DNA of 64,000 nt from Gammaproteobacteria bacterium HGW-Gammaproteobacteria-11. GTDB lineage: Bacteria > Pseudomonadota > Gammaproteobacteria > Pseudomonadales > Pseudomonadaceae. Of this stretch, positions 3,136 to 34,909 are shown in pieces. The position numbers were made by a program, and so were the translations under genes. A model generated the notes under the pieces. The model did not search any database, had not been told where the DNA came from, and saw only the letters and a list, made by a program, of their open reading frames with translations. Each line of letters begins with the position of its first letter. The stretch's first letter is position 1. Where the stretch lies: positions 124,001 to 188,000 of the forward strand of contig PGZJ01000003.1 of NCBI GenBank assembly GCA_002840055.1, read 5' to 3'.

Positions 3136-3701
3136 GCCTTTCCGTGTACCGCACAGGCTATCGGGCATTGCTGTTTATCTGCGGCATGAATGCGGCTGGC
3201 GGTGTCTTTGCCGCCCTCGATAGCGACGCCCTGAGCCGGCAGTTGGCCGAGCAAAGCCCGGCCTGCGGCACCTTCCAGCAAAACCGCTGGCTCGCCGATT
3301 TCGAGCTGGACCTGCCCAGCAGCGGCAGCTTTCAGCGGTTTGACGATGCTGTGATCTGGCGGACCGAGACACCGGTACGCAGCGAGATCCGCCTCAGCCA
3401 GGACAACACCGAGTTGCCACCCGGTTACCGCCTGCTGCTACCGGTCATGAACGCCCTGTTGGGCGGTAACTGGCAAGATTTGCAGGATCATTTCCAGATA
3501 GCCACAGAGGGAGATCTAAGCAGCTGGAGCGCACAGCTCACGCCACTGGATAGCCGCGTTGCGGCTACCCTGCCGCTGATTGAGGTGACAGGTGGCCAAC
3601 GCCTCGACACTATCGCCATGCGCTTTGCCGACGGCGACCGCCTGGGCATCGCTCTGTCACCGGCGACTTGCAAACTCGACCCGGTGCCGCAGCAACCATG
3701 A
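3132..3701 (+). CDS. LolA-like periplasmic lipid/lipoprotein carrier (aryl polyene cluster)
   Basis: 189 residues with a Sec-type signal peptide (hydrophobic core LLFICGMNAAGGVFA, probable cleavage near residue 28). The rest resembles LolA-like proteins of aryl polyene clusters: ELDLPSSGSFQRF, then VIWRTETP. The family folds into a half-open beta barrel that carries hydrophobic cargo across the periplasm. With the MMPL exporter next door, the likely job is moving the lipidated polyene towards the outer membrane. Start and stop are both coupled to neighbours by ATGA overlaps (3132-3135 and 3698-3701). It corresponds to ApeL by position. Confidence 0.8.
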   Translation: MSLSVYRTGYRALLFICGMNAAGGVFAALDSDALSRQLAEQSPACGTFQQNRWLADFELDLPSSGSFQRFDDAVIWRTETPVRSEIRLSQDNTELPPGYRLLLPVMNALLGGNWQDLQDHFQIATEGDLSSWSAQLTPLDSRVAATLPLIEVTGGQRLDTIAMRFADGDRLGIALSPATCKLDPVPQQP

Positions 3702-25768: not shown

Positions 25769-27352
25769 TCAATGTGGCGGATGGTCGGCATGACTGGCGG
25801 CCGGCACGGTCAAATGCCTGAGAAAGCGCGCAGTCAGCAGCGCCGTGGCAAACATGATCAAGGCACCAATAATGGCATTGGTATGCAGCGCAGCGCTGAA
25901 GGCTTGCTGCACCGCCACCAGCAACACCGCTGCCGCCTCAACCGGTAGTTGTTCAATCACCCCCAGCGCACCGCCTATGGTATCAATGGCCACGGCCGCC
26001 TGATCCGGCGCCAGCGCTGGCGCTATGCTCTCAGCCATATGCCGCCTATACACCGCCGTACCAATGCTGCCAATCACTGCGATACCCAGCGCCATACCCA
26101 GCTCGGCTGCAGTCTCTGAGGTGGCCGAAGCAGCGCCAGCCTTTTCCGCGGGCGCTGAACTGACCACCAGATCAGTCCCCAGGATCATCATCGGCATGAC
26201 CCCCACCCCCATGACGACGGTGCCCACTATCAGCAGCCACAGGGTGTCGATGCCGTTGACCAGCATCAGACAAACAAAGCCCAGTACGCCGAGCAACAAG
26301 CCACTGCTGACCAGGTGCGACGGTTTGACATGCCGTGCCAGACGCGGCACCAGCAACGAGACCATGACCTGGATGACCGCCGACGGCACCATCAGCACGC
26401 CCGCCCAGAATGCCGAGAGCCCGAGCACGCCCTGCAAGTACTGGAACACCATGAGCCAGGAGCCGGACAGCGCCAGAATGGTCAGCAGCATGGCGCCCAC
26501 CGAGGTGCTGAAACCGCGATTGGCGAACAACTCCAGATCGAACATCGGTTGGGCCAGCCTGCGCTGGCGGCGCACAAACAGCCAGCCGATCACCAGCCCC
26601 AGCACAACCGCAACACAGACAATCAGGCTGATACCGTCGCGTGCCAGCTCCTTGATGCCATAGACCAAAGACAGGAAAGTACCAATACAGAGCACGGCGC
26701 TGGTGATATCCAGCCGTCCGGCCTGGGTATCCCGGGATTCGGGCAGCAGCAGCGGACCGGCAATCAGCAGCACCAGCATGACCGGCACACCCAACAAGAA
26801 CACCGAGCCCCACCAGAAGAACTCCAGCAAGGCACCACCGACCAGCGGCCCAATGGCACTGCCGACCAGAAAGCCGGTCATCCACAAGGTAATGGCCAAG
26901 GTTCGCTCCGCGGGCACTTCAAACAGGCCACGGATCAGCGACAGGGTCGAGGGCATCAGCGTGGCGCCGGATATGCCCAGCAGCGCGCGGGTCAGGATCA
27001 GCATGTTGGCCGAGGTGGAAAACGCGGCGAGGACAGAAGCAAAGCCGAAGGCGGCAGCACCGATCAGCAGCAGTTTGCGGCGACCGATACGGTCACCCAG
27101 GGTGCCCATGGTGATCAGAAAGCCGGCAATCATGAAGCCGTAAATGTCCAGTATCCACAGCAGCTGCGAGCTGGTGGGTTGCAGGTCGGCACTCAGGTGC
27201 GGAGCCGCCAGATGCAATACCGTCATATCCAATGCCAGCAACAGCGTCGGCAGAATCAGCACCGCCAGACCCAACCACTGCTTGCGGCCGGCTGGCCGGG
27301 GCGTCAATGATTCAAAACGCGCATGATCTAACGACATGGGGACACTCGACAT
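25769..27352 (-). CDS. DHA2-family MFS drug/quaternary amine exporter (SmvA/QacA-like)
   Basis: 527 residues with about 14 predicted membrane helices. LDMTVLHLAAPHLS in TM1, GDRIGRRKLLLIG in the loop between TM2 and TM3, and TALLGISGATLMPSTL-like residues in the TM4-5 region are typical of the DHA2 drug:H+ antiporter group (SmvA, QacA). Such pumps export quaternary ammonium compounds, dyes and bile-type detergents. No dedicated regulator sits beside it; the downstream-facing LuxR gene is separate. Confidence 0.85.
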   Translation of the reverse strand: MSSVPMSLDHARFESLTPRPAGRKQWLGLAVLILPTLLLALDMTVLHLAAPHLSADLQPTSSQLLWILDIYGFMIAGFLITMGTLGDRIGRRKLLLIGAAAFGFASVLAAFSTSANMLILTRALLGISGATLMPSTLSLIRGLFEVPAERTLAITLWMTGFLVGSAIGPLVGGALLEFFWWGSVFLLGVPVMLVLLIAGPLLLPESRDTQAGRLDITSAVLCIGTFLSLVYGIKELARDGISLIVCVAVVLGLVIGWLFVRRQRRLAQPMFDLELFANRGFSTSVGAMLLTILALSGSWLMVFQYLQGVLGLSAFWAGVLMVPSAVIQVMVSLLVPRLARHVKPSHLVSSGLLLGVLGFVCLMLVNGIDTLWLLIVGTVVMGVGVMPMMILGTDLVVSSAPAEKAGAASATSETAAELGMALGIAVIGSIGTAVYRRHMAESIAPALAPDQAAVAIDTIGGALGVIEQLPVEAAAVLLVAVQQAFSAALHTNAIIGALIMFATALLTARFLRHLTVPAASHADHPPH

Positions 27353-27417: not shown

Positions 27418-30123
27418 CTACTGAAGCAGACCCAGTACCTTGGCCTGGGCCACCGCCTGGGTACGGCGCTCGACACCCAGCTTGTGGTTGATGCGGCGGG
27501 CGTGGCTTTTGACCGTATGCAGGGAAATGAACAGCGCCTCGCTGATCTGCTGATTGGAATAGCCCTGGGCGATGCACTTGAGTACATCCAGTTCACGCAC
27601 ACTCAGGGCGCCCTGGAGGGTTACCGCAACCTGGCGACCGTCCGGACGCGGCACCCTGGGCAACATGCCCAGTAAGGTATCGCGCAGTGCGGATGCCGGC
27701 GCCCGCGAGAGAATATCCGGCAAGCCTGGTGGGGTTTGCTGGGTTAACGGCAGAAAGGGCCCGAGGATGCTGTCCTCTGCCGCCAATGCCAACGCAGCCA
27801 GCACCACCTTGTCTGCCTCAACGCCCTGTTCACTGCGGTACAACAGGCGTGCCAGCAACGTCATGACCAGCAACACCTGTAAATGCTCACCGCTGTGCTG
27901 CAGCTGACGTAACTGTCCACGCAGGATGCTTTCAGCGGCTACCTGCTCGCCGCGTTGCCAGAGCAGCCGCGCATAGACCCGCTCGATCAAGGCAGGCAGA
28001 GCATGGAAGAACGGCGGCGGTGCGGCCTGCCGATCCATACAGTAGGTCTGCCGCAGGCGCGGCAGCCATTGCTCGGCCAGATCCATGCGACCCGAGGTAA
28101 TCCAGATATCACTTTTCAGGGCGGTCCCCCAGCCCAGGTAATAGACTGGCGGGATATCCCACAAATGCATCAGGCGCTCGGCCTCGGTCAAGGTGTCAAA
28201 GGCCTCGGCGGTACCGCCAGACTGTTGTGCCTGGAGTGTCGCCAGCAGGCAGTAACCGGGTAATACGTGCACGTCGCGGCAGTCCCGAGCCTCGTCGATG
28301 CCTTGCTGCAGCTGCTGAACGGCCTCTGGCAGGTTACCCAGCAAGCCCAGTAGATAGCCCCGGTAGAGCGTGAGTCTGGCGCGCACCGCCAGACCACGCG
28401 GGTAACTCAACGACTGTAACGCCTGACATTGCTGGGTAGTCGCCTTGAGGGCGCGCTGAATATGCCCGCGAACCTGCAGCAGTCGTGCACGCATCAACAT
28501 GGCCTGAACCTCAAACAGCGGCTCACCAATACGCTGGGCCATCTCCAGCGCCGTGCGTGCCCAGTGTCTGGCGTTGTCCAACCGATGTTCACACAGATCA
28601 ATATCGGCCAACAGCAACATGGCCATCAGACGACTGCCGGCATCCTCATCATCCAGTGTGGCCAAACCTTGATGACATAACAGCGCGGCCTGCTCAAGAT
28701 GGCCCGCTGAACGCTCGATAAAGCCGCGCAACACCAGTGCCTGTCCGATCAACCGCCTCTGCGCGTCAGCGTTGGGTTGCGGTAGAAAATACGTCAACCG
28801 CGCCAACATGCTGCGGGCCTCTTCCAACTGACAGGCCAGCGCCAGGGTCCAGCCATGCAACATGACCAGGTGCGCGGTACTGCCTTGCAGCGCGATCGGC
28901 AGTTGAGCCATCCAGCGCAACAAGGTGTCCACATGCTGCTCAGCCAGCAGCCGCTCCAGCGGCAGGTTTTGTACCAGACTGGCTGCCCGTTCCGGGTGTT
29001 CAGCTGCCAGGGCCTGCTCCACCGCTTCGGCGATCCTGCCCTGCTGGCTGAACCAGTCGCTGGCCCTCAGCTGCATGGCACGGCGCTGCTCCCGGCTTTG
29101 CGGATGACGCGCGCGCAATGCATCGGAAAACAGGTGATGAAAGCGAAACCACTGTCCGTCCGCATCCAGCGGCACCAGAAAGACCTGGTGCTGCAACAGA
29201 TAATGAATGATCTCGGCGCTTTGATCAGAGCAGCGGACCTGATCACATAGCGCGGCAGTGAAGCGATCAAGCACACCGATATCATCAAGAAAGGCCTGAA
29301 CCTCAGGCGGCTGCCGCAGGATCACCTCCTCAAGCAGGTATTCACCGATCAGCGGCTGGGAGCCCGCCATTGAGGCGGCTTGCCCTGACTCCTGCGCGGT
29401 CATGGCCAGCAGACGCAAGCCGGCTATCCAGCCCTCGTTGCGCAGCAGACGCTGGCGCAGCCAGAGCGGATCCGCCTGACTGAGCCCGCTGTGCTGCAGG
29501 AAGACGCGCGACTCATCGCGGGTCAGACGCAATTGCGACTCACCCAGCTCCAGCAGACGATTATTCAGGCGCAGACGCGCAAGGTGCCAGTCCGGCTTGC
29601 AGCGGCCGGTGATCAACAGTTGAAAGCCGTTGGGTAATTGATCCAGCAGCAAAGCACACAGGCGGTCAGCCTGCGGGCCGCGGATCAAATGGTAGTCATC
29701 CAGCACCAGCAGGGGCTGCGAGGCGGGATCATAGCAACGCGCCAGATCAGCCATCAGCGACACCACCAATTGATCCAGTGCCAGCGCCTGATGCCGTTGC
29801 TTTTGCTGCAGGAGTGACAATGCATGCCGCCCCAGACCGGGATACAGGGACTGCAGACCAAGGATCAGATTTCGCAGGAAGGTAGCACCCTCGGCGTCCT
29901 GACTGTCCAGCGCCAACCAGACAGAAGGATGGCGGGCGTCACGCTGCTCCGAGTATTCAATCGCCAGCGTGCTTTTGCCGAAACCGGCAGGTGCACAGAT
30001 CAGAATCAACCGACAGTGTTCTGCTTGATTTAACTGGGCGATAAGCTCGGGACGCGGCACATGCTCCGCCGGTAGCGGCGGCCGAAAAATCTTGCCGGGG
30101 AAGGATGCGATGGACATGGGCAT
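27418..30123 (-). CDS. MalT/AlkS-like LuxR-family transcriptional activator
   Basis: 901 residues. A STAND-type NTPase domain with Walker A APAGFGKST (residues 44-52) and a Walker B-like LLVLDDYH near residue 140 is followed by a long helical-repeat region and a C-terminal LuxR helix-turn-helix (LSVRELDVLKCIAQGYSNQQ through LFISLHTVKSHARRI). The plan is that of MalT and of AlkS, the alkane-responsive activator. The next two transcription units upstream encode a DUF1329 protein and an AlkK-like synthetase, so it probably controls lipid or hydrocarbon genes. Two in-frame ATGs (30123, 30117) are possible starts; both lie in or next to a hairpin. Confidence 0.88.
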   Translation of the reverse strand: MPMSIASFPGKIFRPPLPAEHVPRPELIAQLNQAEHCRLILICAPAGFGKSTLAIEYSEQRDARHPSVWLALDSQDAEGATFLRNLILGLQSLYPGLGRHALSLLQQKQRHQALALDQLVVSLMADLARCYDPASQPLLVLDDYHLIRGPQADRLCALLLDQLPNGFQLLITGRCKPDWHLARLRLNNRLLELGESQLRLTRDESRVFLQHSGLSQADPLWLRQRLLRNEGWIAGLRLLAMTAQESGQAASMAGSQPLIGEYLLEEVILRQPPEVQAFLDDIGVLDRFTAALCDQVRCSDQSAEIIHYLLQHQVFLVPLDADGQWFRFHHLFSDALRARHPQSREQRRAMQLRASDWFSQQGRIAEAVEQALAAEHPERAASLVQNLPLERLLAEQHVDTLLRWMAQLPIALQGSTAHLVMLHGWTLALACQLEEARSMLARLTYFLPQPNADAQRRLIGQALVLRGFIERSAGHLEQAALLCHQGLATLDDEDAGSRLMAMLLLADIDLCEHRLDNARHWARTALEMAQRIGEPLFEVQAMLMRARLLQVRGHIQRALKATTQQCQALQSLSYPRGLAVRARLTLYRGYLLGLLGNLPEAVQQLQQGIDEARDCRDVHVLPGYCLLATLQAQQSGGTAEAFDTLTEAERLMHLWDIPPVYYLGWGTALKSDIWITSGRMDLAEQWLPRLRQTYCMDRQAAPPPFFHALPALIERVYARLLWQRGEQVAAESILRGQLRQLQHSGEHLQVLLVMTLLARLLYRSEQGVEADKVVLAALALAAEDSILGPFLPLTQQTPPGLPDILSRAPASALRDTLLGMLPRVPRPDGRQVAVTLQGALSVRELDVLKCIAQGYSNQQISEALFISLHTVKSHARRINHKLGVERRTQAVAQAKVLGLLQ

Positions 30124-30211: not shown

Positions 30212-31573
30212 TTAACGCACACCCGCCTGACGCAGGGCAGCAGGCGTGAAATCGCTGGCACTGGCCGAGTGGTTGTAGTTGTAGTCATGCGCTTCTTCGT
30301 TGCTCATACCGGTTGCCAGGTAACGGCCGGCCACCAGGTCGTACAGGGTTTCCATGGCATAACCTGGCACCTGGGGCTGGAAGCGGTGCATGGCGTGGGC
30401 TTCGGCAACGCGCCAGAGTGTGTCACGGGCATCGTAATGATCGATATGCGCAGCCTGCCAGGAGTCCTCGTCAATGAAGAAGTGGCGCTTGGCGTAGATA
30501 TGACGAGCACCTTCCTTGACGGTGGCAACCACTTCCCAGGTACGGTGCAACTCATAGCGGGTCAGATCCTGATTGATATGACCGGCCTGGATAATGTCGC
30601 TGTAGCTGTTCTGCGGCGAGCCCAGACGGTAGCTGTTGTAAGGGATGTAGACTTCCCGCTTGCCAACCAGCTGCCAGTCGTAGCGATCTGGTGCACCGTT
30701 AAACAGATCGAGGTTATCCGAGGTACGCATGCCGTCGGCAGCAGTACCCGGGCCATCGTAGGACACCTGCGGGGCGCGGCGCACACGACGCTGACCGGCG
30801 TTGTAGATCCAGGCCATGCGTGGCGTAGCTACCTGATCCACGGTCTCGTGTACCAGCAGAACGTTACCCGCCAGACGTGCCGGATCGGTTACCTGCTGCT
30901 TGAAGTAGTAGAGGATGTTCTGCATGGTTTCAGGGTTGTAGTCGGTCAAGCCCGTTGGCAGCACATACTCTTCGTTGAAACGCACAATGGTGAAGTTGCC
31001 GTTGGTCTGCGGAGTGGCCTGGGTCACAACGCGGAACAGCGCTTCACCACGGAAACGGGTTATGTGGTTCCAGATCACCTCGATGCCGCTCTGCGGAATC
31101 GGGAAGGCGTTGGCCAACTTGTAATCCACGACACCGTTGCCGCCCTGCACCAGCTCAGCGTTGCTGGCATTGTAGCGAGCAGCTTCATAGACAGCTTCGG
31201 GCATGCCAACACTGCGACGGGATTCGAACACCGGCATGCGGAACGTGGTGGGATAGCGCCGGAACATGGCAATCTGACCAGGCGTCAGGTTGTCCTGATA
31301 CTGTTCAAGGTTGGCTGCTGTGATGACAAACAGCGGCTTGTCGTCAGCATAGGGGTCGGCGGAGAAGCCGCGCTCGTCAATCGCTGCTGCGTCGGTAGCC
31401 AGGCCACCGGTCCAGGCCGGGATGGTGCCAGCGGCATTGCCGGCCATTTCAGCGCCAATGGGCGTCAGGCTGCCACCAAGATCAGATGCCTGCTGCGCGT
31501 TGACCGCAACAGCAGTACTACCCAGCACCAGGGTAGCGGCCCAGATGGCGGAGGACAGAAGGGGTGTTTTCAT
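30212..31573 (-). CDS. DUF1329 exported protein
   Basis: 453 residues with a Sec signal peptide ending near AVAVNAQQ. The body is a full-length DUF1329 protein: GGSLTPIGAEMAGN and IPAWTGG near the N-terminus, then a long beta-rich region related to LolA/LolB-like folds. In Pseudomonas these genes often travel with DUF1302 proteins, MMPL exporters and catabolic genes for terpenoids, steroids, alkanes or esters. A role in envelope handling of hydrophobic substrates is the usual inference. Its promoter shares a motif with the acyl-CoA synthetase gene. Confidence 0.88.
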   Translation of the reverse strand: MKTPLLSSAIWAATLVLGSTAVAVNAQQASDLGGSLTPIGAEMAGNAAGTIPAWTGGLATDAAAIDERGFSADPYADDKPLFVITAANLEQYQDNLTPGQIAMFRRYPTTFRMPVFESRRSVGMPEAVYEAARYNASNAELVQGGNGVVDYKLANAFPIPQSGIEVIWNHITRFRGEALFRVVTQATPQTNGNFTIVRFNEEYVLPTGLTDYNPETMQNILYYFKQQVTDPARLAGNVLLVHETVDQVATPRMAWIYNAGQRRVRRAPQVSYDGPGTAADGMRTSDNLDLFNGAPDRYDWQLVGKREVYIPYNSYRLGSPQNSYSDIIQAGHINQDLTRYELHRTWEVVATVKEGARHIYAKRHFFIDEDSWQAAHIDHYDARDTLWRVAEAHAMHRFQPQVPGYAMETLYDLVAGRYLATGMSNEEAHDYNYNHSASASDFTPAALRQAGVR

Positions 31574-31683
31574 GATTAGGCTCTGCTTTATTGGGGCCGG
31601 GAAGACATGACACCGGCAGATTTAACGAGACAGTTACCCTGTGGCCTTGAATCAGCCTGAATTAAGGGTAGTGCAGGGCGGCG

Positions 31684-31728
31684 ACTATAGCCAAGGCAGG
31701 GCGCGGGGTGATCGCTCGAAAGTATGAA
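31684..31728 (-). promoter_or_regulatory. DUF1329 promoter with shared activator motif
   Basis: On the minus strand, TTCATACTTTCGAGCGAT (31728-31711) is followed 21 bases later by TATAGT (31689-31684), a good -10 with no matching -35. The same motif and -10 recur before the acyl-CoA synthetase gene. An extra inverted repeat, TATGAATT and AATTCATA (31723-31752), overlaps the upstream edge. An activator-dependent promoter is the simplest reading. Confidence 0.6.
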
Positions 31729-31782
31729 TTTGCGTGTCGGTAACAATTCATAACAGGGGGGGGTGTCACAGGAGGTGGAACT

Positions 31783-31819
31783 GATAAAACAAAGCCGGCA
31801 ACCCTGTCGGGATGCCGGC
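31783..31819 (-). terminator. Terminator of the acyl-CoA synthetase gene
   Basis: GCCGGCATCCC and GGGTTGCCGGC (read on the minus strand, one mismatch) with a 4-base loop are followed by TTTGTTTTATC, 8 bases past the stop. Confidence 0.8.
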
Positions 31820-31826
31820 CGGGGTC

Positions 31827-33509
31827 TTACAGGGTCGACAGGAACGGGGCTTGCGCCTCTTGCCACTGGGCTATCTCGCCACGAATGACCTTCTTGTCCA
31901 GCTTGCCGACGCTGGTCTTGGGGATTTCTGCGACGCAGGCAATCTGATTCGGAATCGCCCACTTGTTGATACGACCTTCATCAGCATAGGGCTTGAGGTG
32001 GTCGCGCAGGATGCGGGCATTCATCTCGTGACCTTCGCGCGCCACAATCAGCGCAAAGGGCCGCTCATCCCATTGCGGATCAGGCACCCCGACCACGGCC
32101 ACTTCCTTGACTGCCGGGCTGAGGCTGATCAGGTCTTCCAGTTCCAGCGAGGAAATCCACTCACCACCGGTCTTGATCACATCCTTGATGCGGTCGCGGA
32201 TGTCGATAAAGCCCATCTCATCGATACTCGCCACATCGCCAGTATGCATCCAGCCGTGCGCCCAGAGTTCGGCACTCTTTTCCGGCTCACGGAAATAGCC
32301 CTGGGTCAGCCAGGGTGCACGCAGCACCAGCTCACCCTGAGCCTTGCCATCATGCGGCAGGAAATTGCCCTGCGGATCCATCAGACGCGCATCGGCCAAC
32401 GGCACCGGTATCCCCGCCTTGATCTTGTACGCCGCACGCTCGTCGGCGCTGGCGCGGTCCAGTTCGATATTGTTGTAACCGGCAGAAATCAGCGGACAGG
32501 TTTCCGACATGCCATAGGCTGCAGAGAGCAACATGCCCTTGGCCTTGGCAGCATCAAACAGACTGCGGTTCAGCGCACTGCCGCCGATGATCACTTTCAT
32601 GCCACCGAAGTCAAAGTCCTGGGCACCCTTGGCATTCAGCACCATCTGCAGAATGGTCGGTACGCAGTGGGAGAAGGTAACCTTCTCTTCCTTGATCAGC
32701 TTGCAGAGCATTTCCGGCTCGTAACGACCCGGATAGACCTGCTTGGTACCCAGCAAGGTGGCGGTATAGGGAATACCCCAGGCATGCACATGGAACATCG
32801 GGGTAATGGGCATGTACACATCACGGTTGCCAAATAACCGATTCGCTTCAAGACCACCCATCATGGCTGCCTGGGTCATGGTGTGCAGAACCAGCTGGCG
32901 ATGAGTGAAATACACACCTTTGGGGTTGCCGGTGGTGCCTGTGGTGTAGAAGGTCGTCGCGACCGAGTTCTCATCAAAGTCGGCAAACTCATAGGTCGGC
33001 TCGGCGGCCGCCAACAGGTCTTCGTACTCGCCAACCAGACCAGGCAGGTCTGCGGTCTTGTCATCGCCATCGGTCAACAGAATGGTCTTCTTGACCGTGG
33101 TCAGGTGCGCGTCAATGGCCTTGTAGATCGGTAGAAACTCGCTGTTGACCAGCACGAAAATGTCTTCGGCATGATTCATGGTGTAGAGAATCTGGTCCGG
33201 CGACAGACGAATATTGATGGTGTGCAGCACAGCGCCGAGCATCGGAATGGCAAACATGCATTCCAGATAGCGGTGGCTATCCCAATCCATCACCGCCACG
33301 GTGTCACCGGGCTTCACACCGGCCTTGGTCAGGGCATTGGCCAGACGACGGATACGCTGATTGAAGGTGGCATAATCGTAACGGCTGATGTCACGGTAAA
33401 CGATTTCCTGGCTGCGCTCGTAGCGCTGGCCAGACAAAAGAATGTTCTTGATCAGCAGGGGCGTGGAATGCGCACCCTCGGTCGGTTTGATAACACGGGT
33501 ATTGAGCAT
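31827..33509 (-). CDS. Medium/long-chain acyl-CoA synthetase (AlkK-like)
   Basis: 560 residues. The AMP-binding core is complete: FYTTGTTGNPKGVYFTHRQ, YGMSETCPL, WMHTGDVASID, DRIKDVIKTGGEWIS and the C-terminal PKTSVGKLDKK lysine motif. Length and sequence match the AlkK/FadD3-like group that activates medium- to long-chain fatty acids to CoA thioesters. It faces away from the thiolase gene with a 218-base shared promoter region. Its control probably includes the motif shared with DUF1329. Confidence 0.88.
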   Translation of the reverse strand: MLNTRVIKPTEGAHSTPLLIKNILLSGQRYERSQEIVYRDISRYDYATFNQRIRRLANALTKAGVKPGDTVAVMDWDSHRYLECMFAIPMLGAVLHTINIRLSPDQILYTMNHAEDIFVLVNSEFLPIYKAIDAHLTTVKKTILLTDGDDKTADLPGLVGEYEDLLAAAEPTYEFADFDENSVATTFYTTGTTGNPKGVYFTHRQLVLHTMTQAAMMGGLEANRLFGNRDVYMPITPMFHVHAWGIPYTATLLGTKQVYPGRYEPEMLCKLIKEEKVTFSHCVPTILQMVLNAKGAQDFDFGGMKVIIGGSALNRSLFDAAKAKGMLLSAAYGMSETCPLISAGYNNIELDRASADERAAYKIKAGIPVPLADARLMDPQGNFLPHDGKAQGELVLRAPWLTQGYFREPEKSAELWAHGWMHTGDVASIDEMGFIDIRDRIKDVIKTGGEWISSLELEDLISLSPAVKEVAVVGVPDPQWDERPFALIVAREGHEMNARILRDHLKPYADEGRINKWAIPNQIACVAEIPKTSVGKLDKKVIRGEIAQWQEAQAPFLSTL

Positions 33510-33575
33510 TGTCTCTGACCTGTTTTGTTGGGCTTGTATGGTCTATCCATCAGGCATGCGGCCTGGATGAGAGGC

Positions 33576-33622
33576 ACTATAGTCAAGCAGTTGCAGGACC
33601 ACCTATCACTCCAAAGTATGAA
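33576..33622 (-). promoter_or_regulatory. Acyl-CoA synthetase promoter with shared activator motif
   Basis: TTCATACTTTGGAGTGAT (33622-33605) precedes TATAGT (33581-33576) by 23 bases on the minus strand. Sixteen of 18 motif positions and all of the -10 match the DUF1329 promoter. Confidence 0.6.
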
Positions 33623-33727
33623 CCGCATCACAGGCCGCCCGCAAAGCATCTTTGGGGTTATAATCGGCAAAGCAGTCGTCAGATGACCCTGGGTCATTTT
33701 TCAGTCACTTTTTCAGCAGGAGCCAAG

Positions 33728-34909
33728 ATGTCCGATTCCAGCATTGTCATCGTCAGTGGTGCACGCACCCCCATGGGTGGTTTTCAGGGCAGCCTTGCCA
33801 ACGTCCCGGCCGTCGAACTGGGAGCCATTGCCATTCGCGAGGCTGTGCAGCGCGCCGGTATCGCCGCCGCCGATGTACAGGAAGTGATCATGGGTTGCGT
33901 CTTGCCCGCGGGTCTCAAACAGGGTCCGGCACGGCAGGCCAGCCTGAATGCCGGCCTGCCCGCCGCCACCGGCTGCACCACCATCAACAAATTGTGTGGC
34001 TCCGGCATGAAAGCCGTGATGCTGGCCCATGACCTACTCAAGGCCGGCAGCAACCAGATCATGGTCGCTGGTGGCATGGAAAGCATGTCAAACGCCCCTT
34101 ACCTGATGGAAAAGGCCCGCGGCGGGCTGCGCATGGGCCACGGCGAGATCAAGGACCACATGTTCCTCGACGGACTTGAAGACGCCCGCACTGGCCGCCT
34201 GATGGGCTCCTTTGCCCAGGAAACCGCCGACCAATACGGCATCAGCCGCGAGGACATGGACGCCTACGCCATCGAATCACTGACTCGAGCGAAAAAAGCC
34301 ATTGAAAGCGGTGCACTGGACAGCGAGATCGTGCCGGTCACAGTGACCAGCCGCAAAGGCGAGACCTTGGTGAAGGATGACGAGCAGCCCTATAACGCCA
34401 ACATCGACAAGATCCCCGGCCTCAAGCCGGCCTTTCGCAAGGACGGCAGCATCACCGCCGCCAACGCCAGCTCGATCTCCGATGGCGCCAGCGCCCTGGT
34501 CCTGATGACCGCCGCCGAAGCGCAAAAGCGCGGCCTCAAGCCACTGGCGCGGATAGTCGGTCACGCGACCCAGAGCCAGGACCCGAGCGAATTCACCCTC
34601 GCACCGATCGGCGCCATGACCAACCTGTTCAACAAGACCGGCTGGAACAAGGATGACGTTGACCTGTTCGAAATCAACGAAGCCTTTGCCATGGTCACCA
34701 TGCTGGCGATGCGCGAACACGGTCTGGACCACAGCAAGGTCAATATCTACGGCGGCGCCTGCGCCCAGGGCCACCCGGTTGGCTCCACTGGCTCACGCAT
34801 CATCGTCACCCTGATCAATGCCCTGCAGAAAACCGGCGGCAAGCGTGGCGTGGCGTCGCTATGCATAGGTGGCGGCGAAGCTACAGCGGTGGCCATTGAG
34901 CTGCTGTAA
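33728..34909 (+). CDS. Acetyl-CoA C-acetyltransferase (thiolase)
   Basis: 393 residues from ATG 33728, which has AGGAGCC upstream; a longer frame reaching 33509 overlaps the divergent promoter. The thiolase catalytic residues are present: Cys90 (NKLCGSGMKA), His349 (AQGHPVGSTGS) and Cys379 (SLCIGGGEA), with NEAFA preceding. It condenses two acetyl-CoA or cleaves acetoacetyl-CoA. The length fits the AtoB/PhaA class rather than FadA. Next to an acyl-CoA synthetase, it is likely catabolic. Confidence 0.92.
   Translation: MSDSSIVIVSGARTPMGGFQGSLANVPAVELGAIAIREAVQRAGIAAADVQEVIMGCVLPAGLKQGPARQASLNAGLPAATGCTTINKLCGSGMKAVMLAHDLLKAGSNQIMVAGGMESMSNAPYLMEKARGGLRMGHGEIKDHMFLDGLEDARTGRLMGSFAQETADQYGISREDMDAYAIESLTRAKKAIESGALDSEIVPVTVTSRKGETLVKDDEQPYNANIDKIPGLKPAFRKDGSITAANASSISDGASALVLMTAAEAQKRGLKPLARIVGHATQSQDPSEFTLAPIGAMTNLFNKTGWNKDDVDLFEINEAFAMVTMLAMREHGLDHSKVNIYGGACAQGHPVGSTGSRIIVTLINALQKTGGKRGVASLCIGGGEATAVAIELL

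Follow-up and report, generated by a model that had tools for sequence, protein, structure and literature searches.

A conserved 18-bp motif at two lipid-use promoters, a predicted operator of a MalT-like LuxR-family regulator in Halopseudomonas and related bacteria

Introduction

In a 64,000-nucleotide stretch of Gammaproteobacteria bacterium HGW-Gammaproteobacteria-11 (contig PGZJ01000003.1, positions 124,001–188,000; hereafter the window), genes for an AlkK-like acyl-CoA ligase and a DUF1329 protein lie side by side, followed by a gene for a large LuxR-family regulator. An earlier note on this DNA had described a motif common to the two promoters, read it as the mark of an activator-dependent regulon and proposed the regulator as its activator. 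The locus raises two questions: whether the motif is a genuine signal and, if so, which protein it serves. We followed motif and regulator through the genus Halopseudomonas, other genera of the Pseudomonadaceae and further families of the order.

The two promoters of the window

The features of the locus are listed in Table 1. Both promoters carry the 18-bp motif TTCATACTTTNGAGNGAT on the minus strand, with 16 of 18 positions identical between the two copies, and a recount of the gaps placed the TATAGT boxes 21 bases (DUF1329) and 23 bases (ligase) past the site, as the earlier note had it. Its statement that neither promoter has a good −35 box also held: at spacings of 15–19 bases, no hexamer matched TTGACA at more than three of six positions, and a sigma-70 scan of 31500–33800 listed one site, at neither the DUF1329 nor the ligase promoter.

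Table 1 Predicted features of the lipid-use locus (window coordinates)
Feature	Position	Strand	Remarks
MalT-like LuxR-family regulator, 901 aa, proposed activator	27418..30123	-	ATPase, MalT-type TPR, C-terminal GerE HTH
DUF1329 protein (LolA-like), 453 aa	30212..31573	-	PF07044; PF17131
-10 box TATAGT, DUF1329 promoter	31684..31689	-	reads ACTATA on + strand
Activator site (predicted), DUF1329 promoter, TTCATACTTTCGAGCGAT	31711..31728	-	genus: 13/14 readable DUF1329 promoters with regulator
Hairpin with T-rich tail, likely terminator behind ligase gene	31784..31820	-	fold -26.5 kcal/mol, z -4.4
AlkK/FadD-like long-chain acyl-CoA ligase, 560 aa	31827..33509	-	PF00501, PF13193; NF004837 over cut-off
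-10 box TATAGT, ligase promoter	33576..33581	-	reads ACTATA on + strand
Activator site (predicted), ligase promoter, TTCATACTTTGGAGTGAT	33605..33622	-	genus: 14/14 readable ligase promoters with regulator
Acetyl-CoA acyltransferase (thiolase), divergent from ligase	33731..34909	+	conserved neighbour

With up to three mismatches, the motif as first written, which was derived from the same two sites that it then matches, occurred three times in the window against 0.17 expected. A broader core-plus-box pattern, also devised after the sites had been seen, matched twice in the window and not at all in 200 windows simulated with a Markov-1 model. The genome itself (76% complete) contains only the two window sites under the strict motif-plus-box pattern. 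Further regulon members were not evident there, up to three mismatches giving 11 matches against six for the reversed control, and additional targets in this genome were rejected as none exceeded chance.

The hairpin between the ligase gene and the DUF1329 promoter fits separate transcription of both genes, so that the DUF1329 gene probably needs a promoter of its own; the hairpin was absent from the output of a terminator scan. Nothing indicates that the site acts on the divergent thiolase promoter.

Co-occurrence of site and regulator in Halopseudomonas

We searched 58 genomes, including that of the window, for the motif with at most one mismatch, and found it in 16: the window genome, 14 congeners and one distant genome (G051). 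A close orthologue of the regulator (at least 52% identity) occurred in exactly the same own-plus-14 genomes. The motif was thus present in 15/15 Halopseudomonas genomes with a neighbouring regulator, against 0/22 congeners without one. The G051 match has one mismatch and no −10 box at the right spacing, and was taken as chance; that genome gave no ligase or DUF1329 match at the limits used.

Among the regulator-bearing members of the genus, all 14 readable ligase promoters have the site followed by TATAGT, at 23 bases in 13 and 22 bases in one; genome G020 has the site on a contig that ends before the ligase. The DUF1329 promoters have a spacing of 21 bases in 11 of 13 and 22 bases in the other two, the sole gap among the 14 readable being G019, which has the regulator and lacks the site at this promoter. 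The 22 congeners without the regulator retain the ligase, and 13 of them retain DUF1329 beside it. Their promoters do not contain the core at up to one mismatch (0/21 readable ligase promoters, the ligase start of G028 lying off the contig, and 0/13 DUF1329 promoters). A ligase tree that includes 21 of these congeners traces them to one or two losses. Regulator and both sites would have been lost jointly in those events, so the 22 congeners do not count as 22 observations, and we do not treat them as independent.

The site in other genera of the Pseudomonadaceae

At E 1e-60, a profile search for the regulator matched 142 of the 198 genomes sampled from the family, paralogues included, and 20 regions around strong matches were inspected. 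In 16 of these the gene order is ligase, DUF1302, DUF1329, regulator, and all 16 clusters have a diverged form of the site, NTCANNCTTTNGNNNGAT, at both the ligase and the DUF1302 promoter. This form is exact in 15/16 ligase sites (one mismatch in the other) and in 16/16 DUF1302 sites, stands 21–22 bases from a TANANT box and scores 10.9–24.1. Upstream of DUF1329, the regulator and the thiolase in the same 16 loci, the best match scored no higher than 4.9. The idea of a pair of lipid genes under one motif accordingly stands in that both promoters carry it, and is refined in that the second target elsewhere is DUF1302–DUF1329.

The remaining four regions have the regulator alone within 11 kb. 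In these genomes (G074, G089, G117 and G081), the ligase and DUF1302 genes lie on another contig or about 420–480 kb from the regulator, and the exact site precedes DUF1302 in 4/4. Their ligase promoters have the exact site with a poor box, TACCTT, in G074, G089 and G117, and a site with two mismatches in G081. Sites are therefore kept where the regulator gene lies elsewhere, and linkage alone is not the explanation. Pseudomonas petrae likewise has both sites, as does G037, a genome of another family whose regulator (39% identity) is encoded on a separate contig; in each of the two, the ligase site has one mismatch.

Both sites are also exact in a record labelled P. aeruginosa (L412, CP109682.1) with the gene order thiolase, ligase, DUF1302, DUF1329, LuxR regulator, which we take to be PA3920–PA3926. 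This record is labelled as a plasmid and carries copA1, moa genes and the cluster in seemingly chromosomal order; it is possibly a mislabelled chromosome segment.

As a prediction test, we ran the pattern ATCANNCTTTNGNNNGATN{21,22}TANANT on 50 genomes of the family that were picked from earlier lists and not at random. It occurred in 33/33 genomes with a close regulator orthologue (twice in 29, once in four) and in 0/17 genomes without one, and the reversed control gave 0/50. Every match listed in the 33 genomes lay upstream of the regulator gene, at a distance of no more than about 6 kb. For 16 of the 33 positives the promoters had been inspected earlier, and for the other 17 they were new. 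The negatives carry less weight than their number suggests, since a close ligase (E 1e-190) is present in just six of the 17. Four of them (G086, G162, G065 and G080) are without the site; the other two, G130 and G097, have a one-mismatch ligase site that the pattern missed and only a regulator of 34% identity. In G194 and G216 the regulator frame is seemingly interrupted and the sites are kept, which may reflect a recent event or a sequencing fault. These four exceptions limit the claim that each site serves this one orthologue.

In the genomes examined, the motif, its spacing and its box are kept in front of orthologues where a close regulator orthologue is present, with one gap (DUF1329 of G019). 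Where that orthologue is absent, the site is missing in 21/21 readable ligase promoters of congeners and in 4/6 close-ligase promoters of other genera. Motif, spacing, conservation, association with the regulator and, with the patterns used, two sites per genome are seen directly, and conserved site and spacing together with the association support the activator-dependent regulon that had been proposed.

Further families of the order

Across the order, the strict pattern CATACTTTNGNNNGATN{20,24}TATAGT matched 28 of the 390 genomes searched (the window genome, 17/17 of family f20 and 10/14 of family f38), and the reversed control matched 0/390. Other genera of the window's family carry the diverged form, so the strict pattern is misleading as a test for the whole family and was abandoned for that use.

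We inspected nine loci of f20 and eight of f38. The f20 site stands before a gene of 617–670 codons, which Pfam identified as DUF1302 in the one tested (L229), and a regulator of 27–29% identity is nearby in 7/9 loci, the other two being cut by a contig end. In f38, 7/8 loci have the site before a gene of 868–1022 codons, which Pfam showed to be lipase-like in both cases tested, and then a DUF1302-type gene (DUF1302 by test in L234); the eighth locus, L241, has the site directly before a DUF1302-sized gene. DUF1329 is next in order, and the same thiolase as in the window lies alongside in 8/8. The f38 match to a MalT-like regulator is 50–65 kb away in 6/8; that of G646 is on a different contig and that of G470 is adjacent.

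These data bear on the reading that the sites are a product of chance or of shared descent, as a duplicated promoter or as clade-wide conservation without function. In its favor, the genus shows no more than one or two losses, and the two promoters within a cluster could share an origin. Site-anchored alignments of four promoter sets, however, gave 1.58–1.85 bits for the motif columns against 0.36–0.59 for the upstream flank (0.45–1.0 for the spacer), so that the site is far more conserved than its surroundings, and genomes with the regulator gene at another place keep their sites. A chance match is ruled out by the pattern across several families with its empty reversed control, the prediction test and the simulated windows. 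We consider chance or shared descent extremely improbable; the 18-base signal before both lipid-use genes is real and very old.

Form and position of the site

The site is an imperfect inverted repeat, ATCAnnC....GnnTGAT. Over 45 distinct sites, the best symmetry was that of an 18-bp dyad, with 4.98 of nine pairs complementary against at most 3.3 for shifted centres. Positions 2–4, 7, 9–10 and 16–18 are invariant and positions 8 and 12 nearly so, an invariance that is partly by construction because the 45 sites were chosen by closeness to the core. The box lies 21–23 bases from the site in 63/63 tallied sites, in a tally that looked for it at 18–26 bases and from which a 64th entry, the missing DUF1329 site of G019, was dropped. 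Taking the −10 box as −12 to −7, the centre of the site falls at about −42.5 to −44.5. The two promoters of the window thus have the layout of class II sigma-70 promoters, with a site over the −35 position, a fixed distance, a good −10 box and no −35 box.

The sites could instead be repressor operators or a dual switch, where a protein bound near −43 hinders transcription. Position alone does not prove activation, and SCO6993, a large ATP-binding LuxR protein, is called a negative regulator in the title of a paper. Against repression, the good −10 and missing −35 boxes at both window promoters and the fixed spacing of 21–23 bases in relatives are what an activated promoter looks like. MalT is an activator. 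AlkS, too, is presented as an activator in passages of PMC8784404. We regard repression as highly unlikely.

Of 18 ligase promoters (L316–L331, L148, L246), 12 have an inverted half-site like CCAAAGAGTCAC that lies 6–7 bases upstream of the predicted operator and might act for the divergent thiolase promoter or for a second dimer.

The regulator and its paralogues

The regulator has the MalT-like (LAL/STAND) architecture, with PF13401, PF17874 and PF00196 all over their cut-offs, and its best solved relative is MalT (8bob, E 1e-53). It is not MalT proper, scoring 312 bits against a cut-off of 537 for the NCBIfam MalT equivalog. Its HTH and recognition helix, the latter placed on our assumption that it follows other LuxR-type HTHs, are almost invariant within the genus and resemble those of the f20 and f38 proteins. 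Autoregulation was considered and rejected: no other site scored above 11 in the 14–17 kb genus loci, and in the loci of other genera nothing upstream of luxR scored above 4.9.

Clusters of paralogous MalT-like regulators (L149, L159, L161, L403–L406) have related sites before DUF1302, often in two copies. The doubled sites are 25–28 bases apart by eye, one of them inverted in L149, and the nearer copy stands 21–22 bases before a TA-box. Matches at position 3538 in the P. lini group, which resemble a start codon and ribosome site, are likewise related sites upstream of DUF1302. The helix of these paralogues is much the same, and their related sites support the link between helix and site. They also allow cross-talk, and in some species a paralogue may be the protein that binds.

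The operator might accordingly be of class II and belong to another protein, either a paralogous MalT-like LuxR regulator or a response regulator such as CrbR (ErdR). The shared recognition helix, the related sequences near the same place in the paralogues' own DUF1302 promoters and a one-mismatch ligase site retained in two g36 genomes without a close orthologue speak for it. So does CrbR itself: passages of PMC5715377 describe a LuxR-type HTH protein that activates a Pseudomonas acyl-CoA synthetase gene from an imperfect inverted repeat spanning −52 to −36, where the present site lies too. According to the same passages, however, CrbR is a two-component response regulator with other target genes, and its published ACTU strings, compared by eye, have different conserved bases and no resemblance to our site; the ACTU motif was therefore discarded as its identity. 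The motif is, moreover, missing in 22/22 congeners without the orthologue, although several hold paralogues of 25–34% identity. Ownership by another protein is in our judgment unlikely. Taken together, the sequence comparisons make it very probable that the motif is the operator of the MalT-like LuxR regulator of the window and mediates class II activation of lipid uptake genes.

Proposed mechanism and target functions

We infer binding, activation, polymerase contacts, start sites and the ligand of the regulator from the observations above. A lipid-derived signal, together with ATP as in MalT, would switch the regulator on; the inducing signal is inferred to be a fatty acid or acyl-CoA. The C-terminal HTH would then bind the operator, which would stand in for the −35 box with its centre where class II activators usually bind, and recruit sigma-70 RNA polymerase to two promoters. 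One would drive the medium/long-chain acyl-CoA ligase gene and the other the DUF1329 gene, or DUF1302–DUF1329 in relatives, whose products would form an outer-membrane barrel with a LolA-like partner. As one regulator would recruit polymerase to both promoters, cells would turn on the import of fatty acids or lipid esters and their activation at the same time.

PA3921 and PP_0767 are, as we take it, the tags of this regulator in P. aeruginosa and P. putida. Passages of PMC10866462 report that the DUF1302 (barrel) and DUF1329 proteins of P. putida, PP_0765/PP_0766, are needed for the use of Tween 20 and are predicted to form a transport complex, and AmeA/AmeB, relatives of the two proteins, are linked to monoterpene use in excerpts of PMC6394551. 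PA3924 and PP_0763 are described as fatty acyl-CoA ligases of medium chains in parts of PMC3667196 and PMC9744835, and PA3924 is raised by cis-2-decenoic acid according to an excerpt of PMC4412052. The DUF1302 gene PA3923 was differentially expressed in 39/73 studies, tenth of all genes; the passages of PMC8547006 that give this count term it a gene of unknown function and name no regulator. The targets are consistent with lipid use, and the regulator of the window is, on comparative grounds, most probably of the uncharacterised PA3921 type, predicted to switch on fatty-acid/lipid uptake in Pseudomonas-like bacteria.

We give about an even chance to a wider proposal, that the PA3921 type is a lipid-sensing ATPase activator with a dedicated and closed two-promoter regulon, joining import of lipids or esters across the outer membrane (DUF1302–DUF1329) to fatty-acid activation in at least four families of one order, and that one operator code is reused by paralogous regulators with altered or doubled sites.

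Comparison with known systems

MalT of Escherichia coli shares the architecture of ATPase, MalT-type TPR and C-terminal GerE HTH. MalT boxes are tandem, whereas the site described here is a dyad. For the PA3921–PA3925/PP_0763–PP_0767 cluster, the P. aeruginosa record has the same gene order and both sites, the difference being that the genus of the window has no DUF1302 in the cluster. For AlkS/PalkB of Pseudomonas putida GPo1, excerpts of PMC8784404 describe an activator of LuxR/MalT type that controls hydrocarbon genes and targets an inverted repeat ahead of the promoter; the window likewise combines a regulator of this type with such a repeat. According to those excerpts, however, the AlkS repeat is 20 bp long, against a degenerate repeat of 18 bp here, and AlkS acts on alkane hydroxylase genes and its own promoter, whereas the present targets are acyl-CoA ligase and DUF1302/DUF1329. 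Positive feedback through an operator at the regulator's own promoter was not found here, and no alkane hydroxylase genes were seen among the cluster genes examined. The system is thus of an already known kind, that of MalT-type LuxR activators with an upstream inverted repeat (AlkS; CrbR for the position). Among papers with open-licence main texts, judged mostly by title or the opening of the abstract, we found no description of the regulator, the operator or the two-promoter regulon; those that mention PA3921 do not have this regulator as their subject by title, and the motif strings matched human-biology papers only, again by title. An uncharacterised, widely conserved regulator thereby gains a predicted operator and target set, and, given a known inducer, the operator could find use as a sensor part.

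Other features of the locus and of regulator-less congeners

The Halopseudomonas loci have no DUF1302 gene between those for ligase and DUF1329 (window 30212–33509), whereas other genera have one there; three DUF1302 matches lie elsewhere in the window genome.

In two congeners without the regulator (L345 and L344, from G025 and G030), the palindrome TCACCCNNNNGGGTGA replaces the activator site upstream of DUF1329. It is exact in 2/4 genomes of that clade and in G025 ends six bases before TATAGT, which suggests rewiring to another regulator. The ligase promoters of regulator-less clade C (e.g., L347, L350 and L353) have a conserved element, GCAAA(G/C)CTTTGTATGATCG, about 119–131 bases before the ligase start in 7/9 genomes; it is unrelated to the activator site.

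An MFS transporter gene (window 25769–27352), QepA-like and far under the QepA family cut-off, adjoins the regulator gene. It is present in 6/14 regulator-bearing Halopseudomonas loci and in 4/4 loci of a regulator-less clade, where it follows DUF1329.
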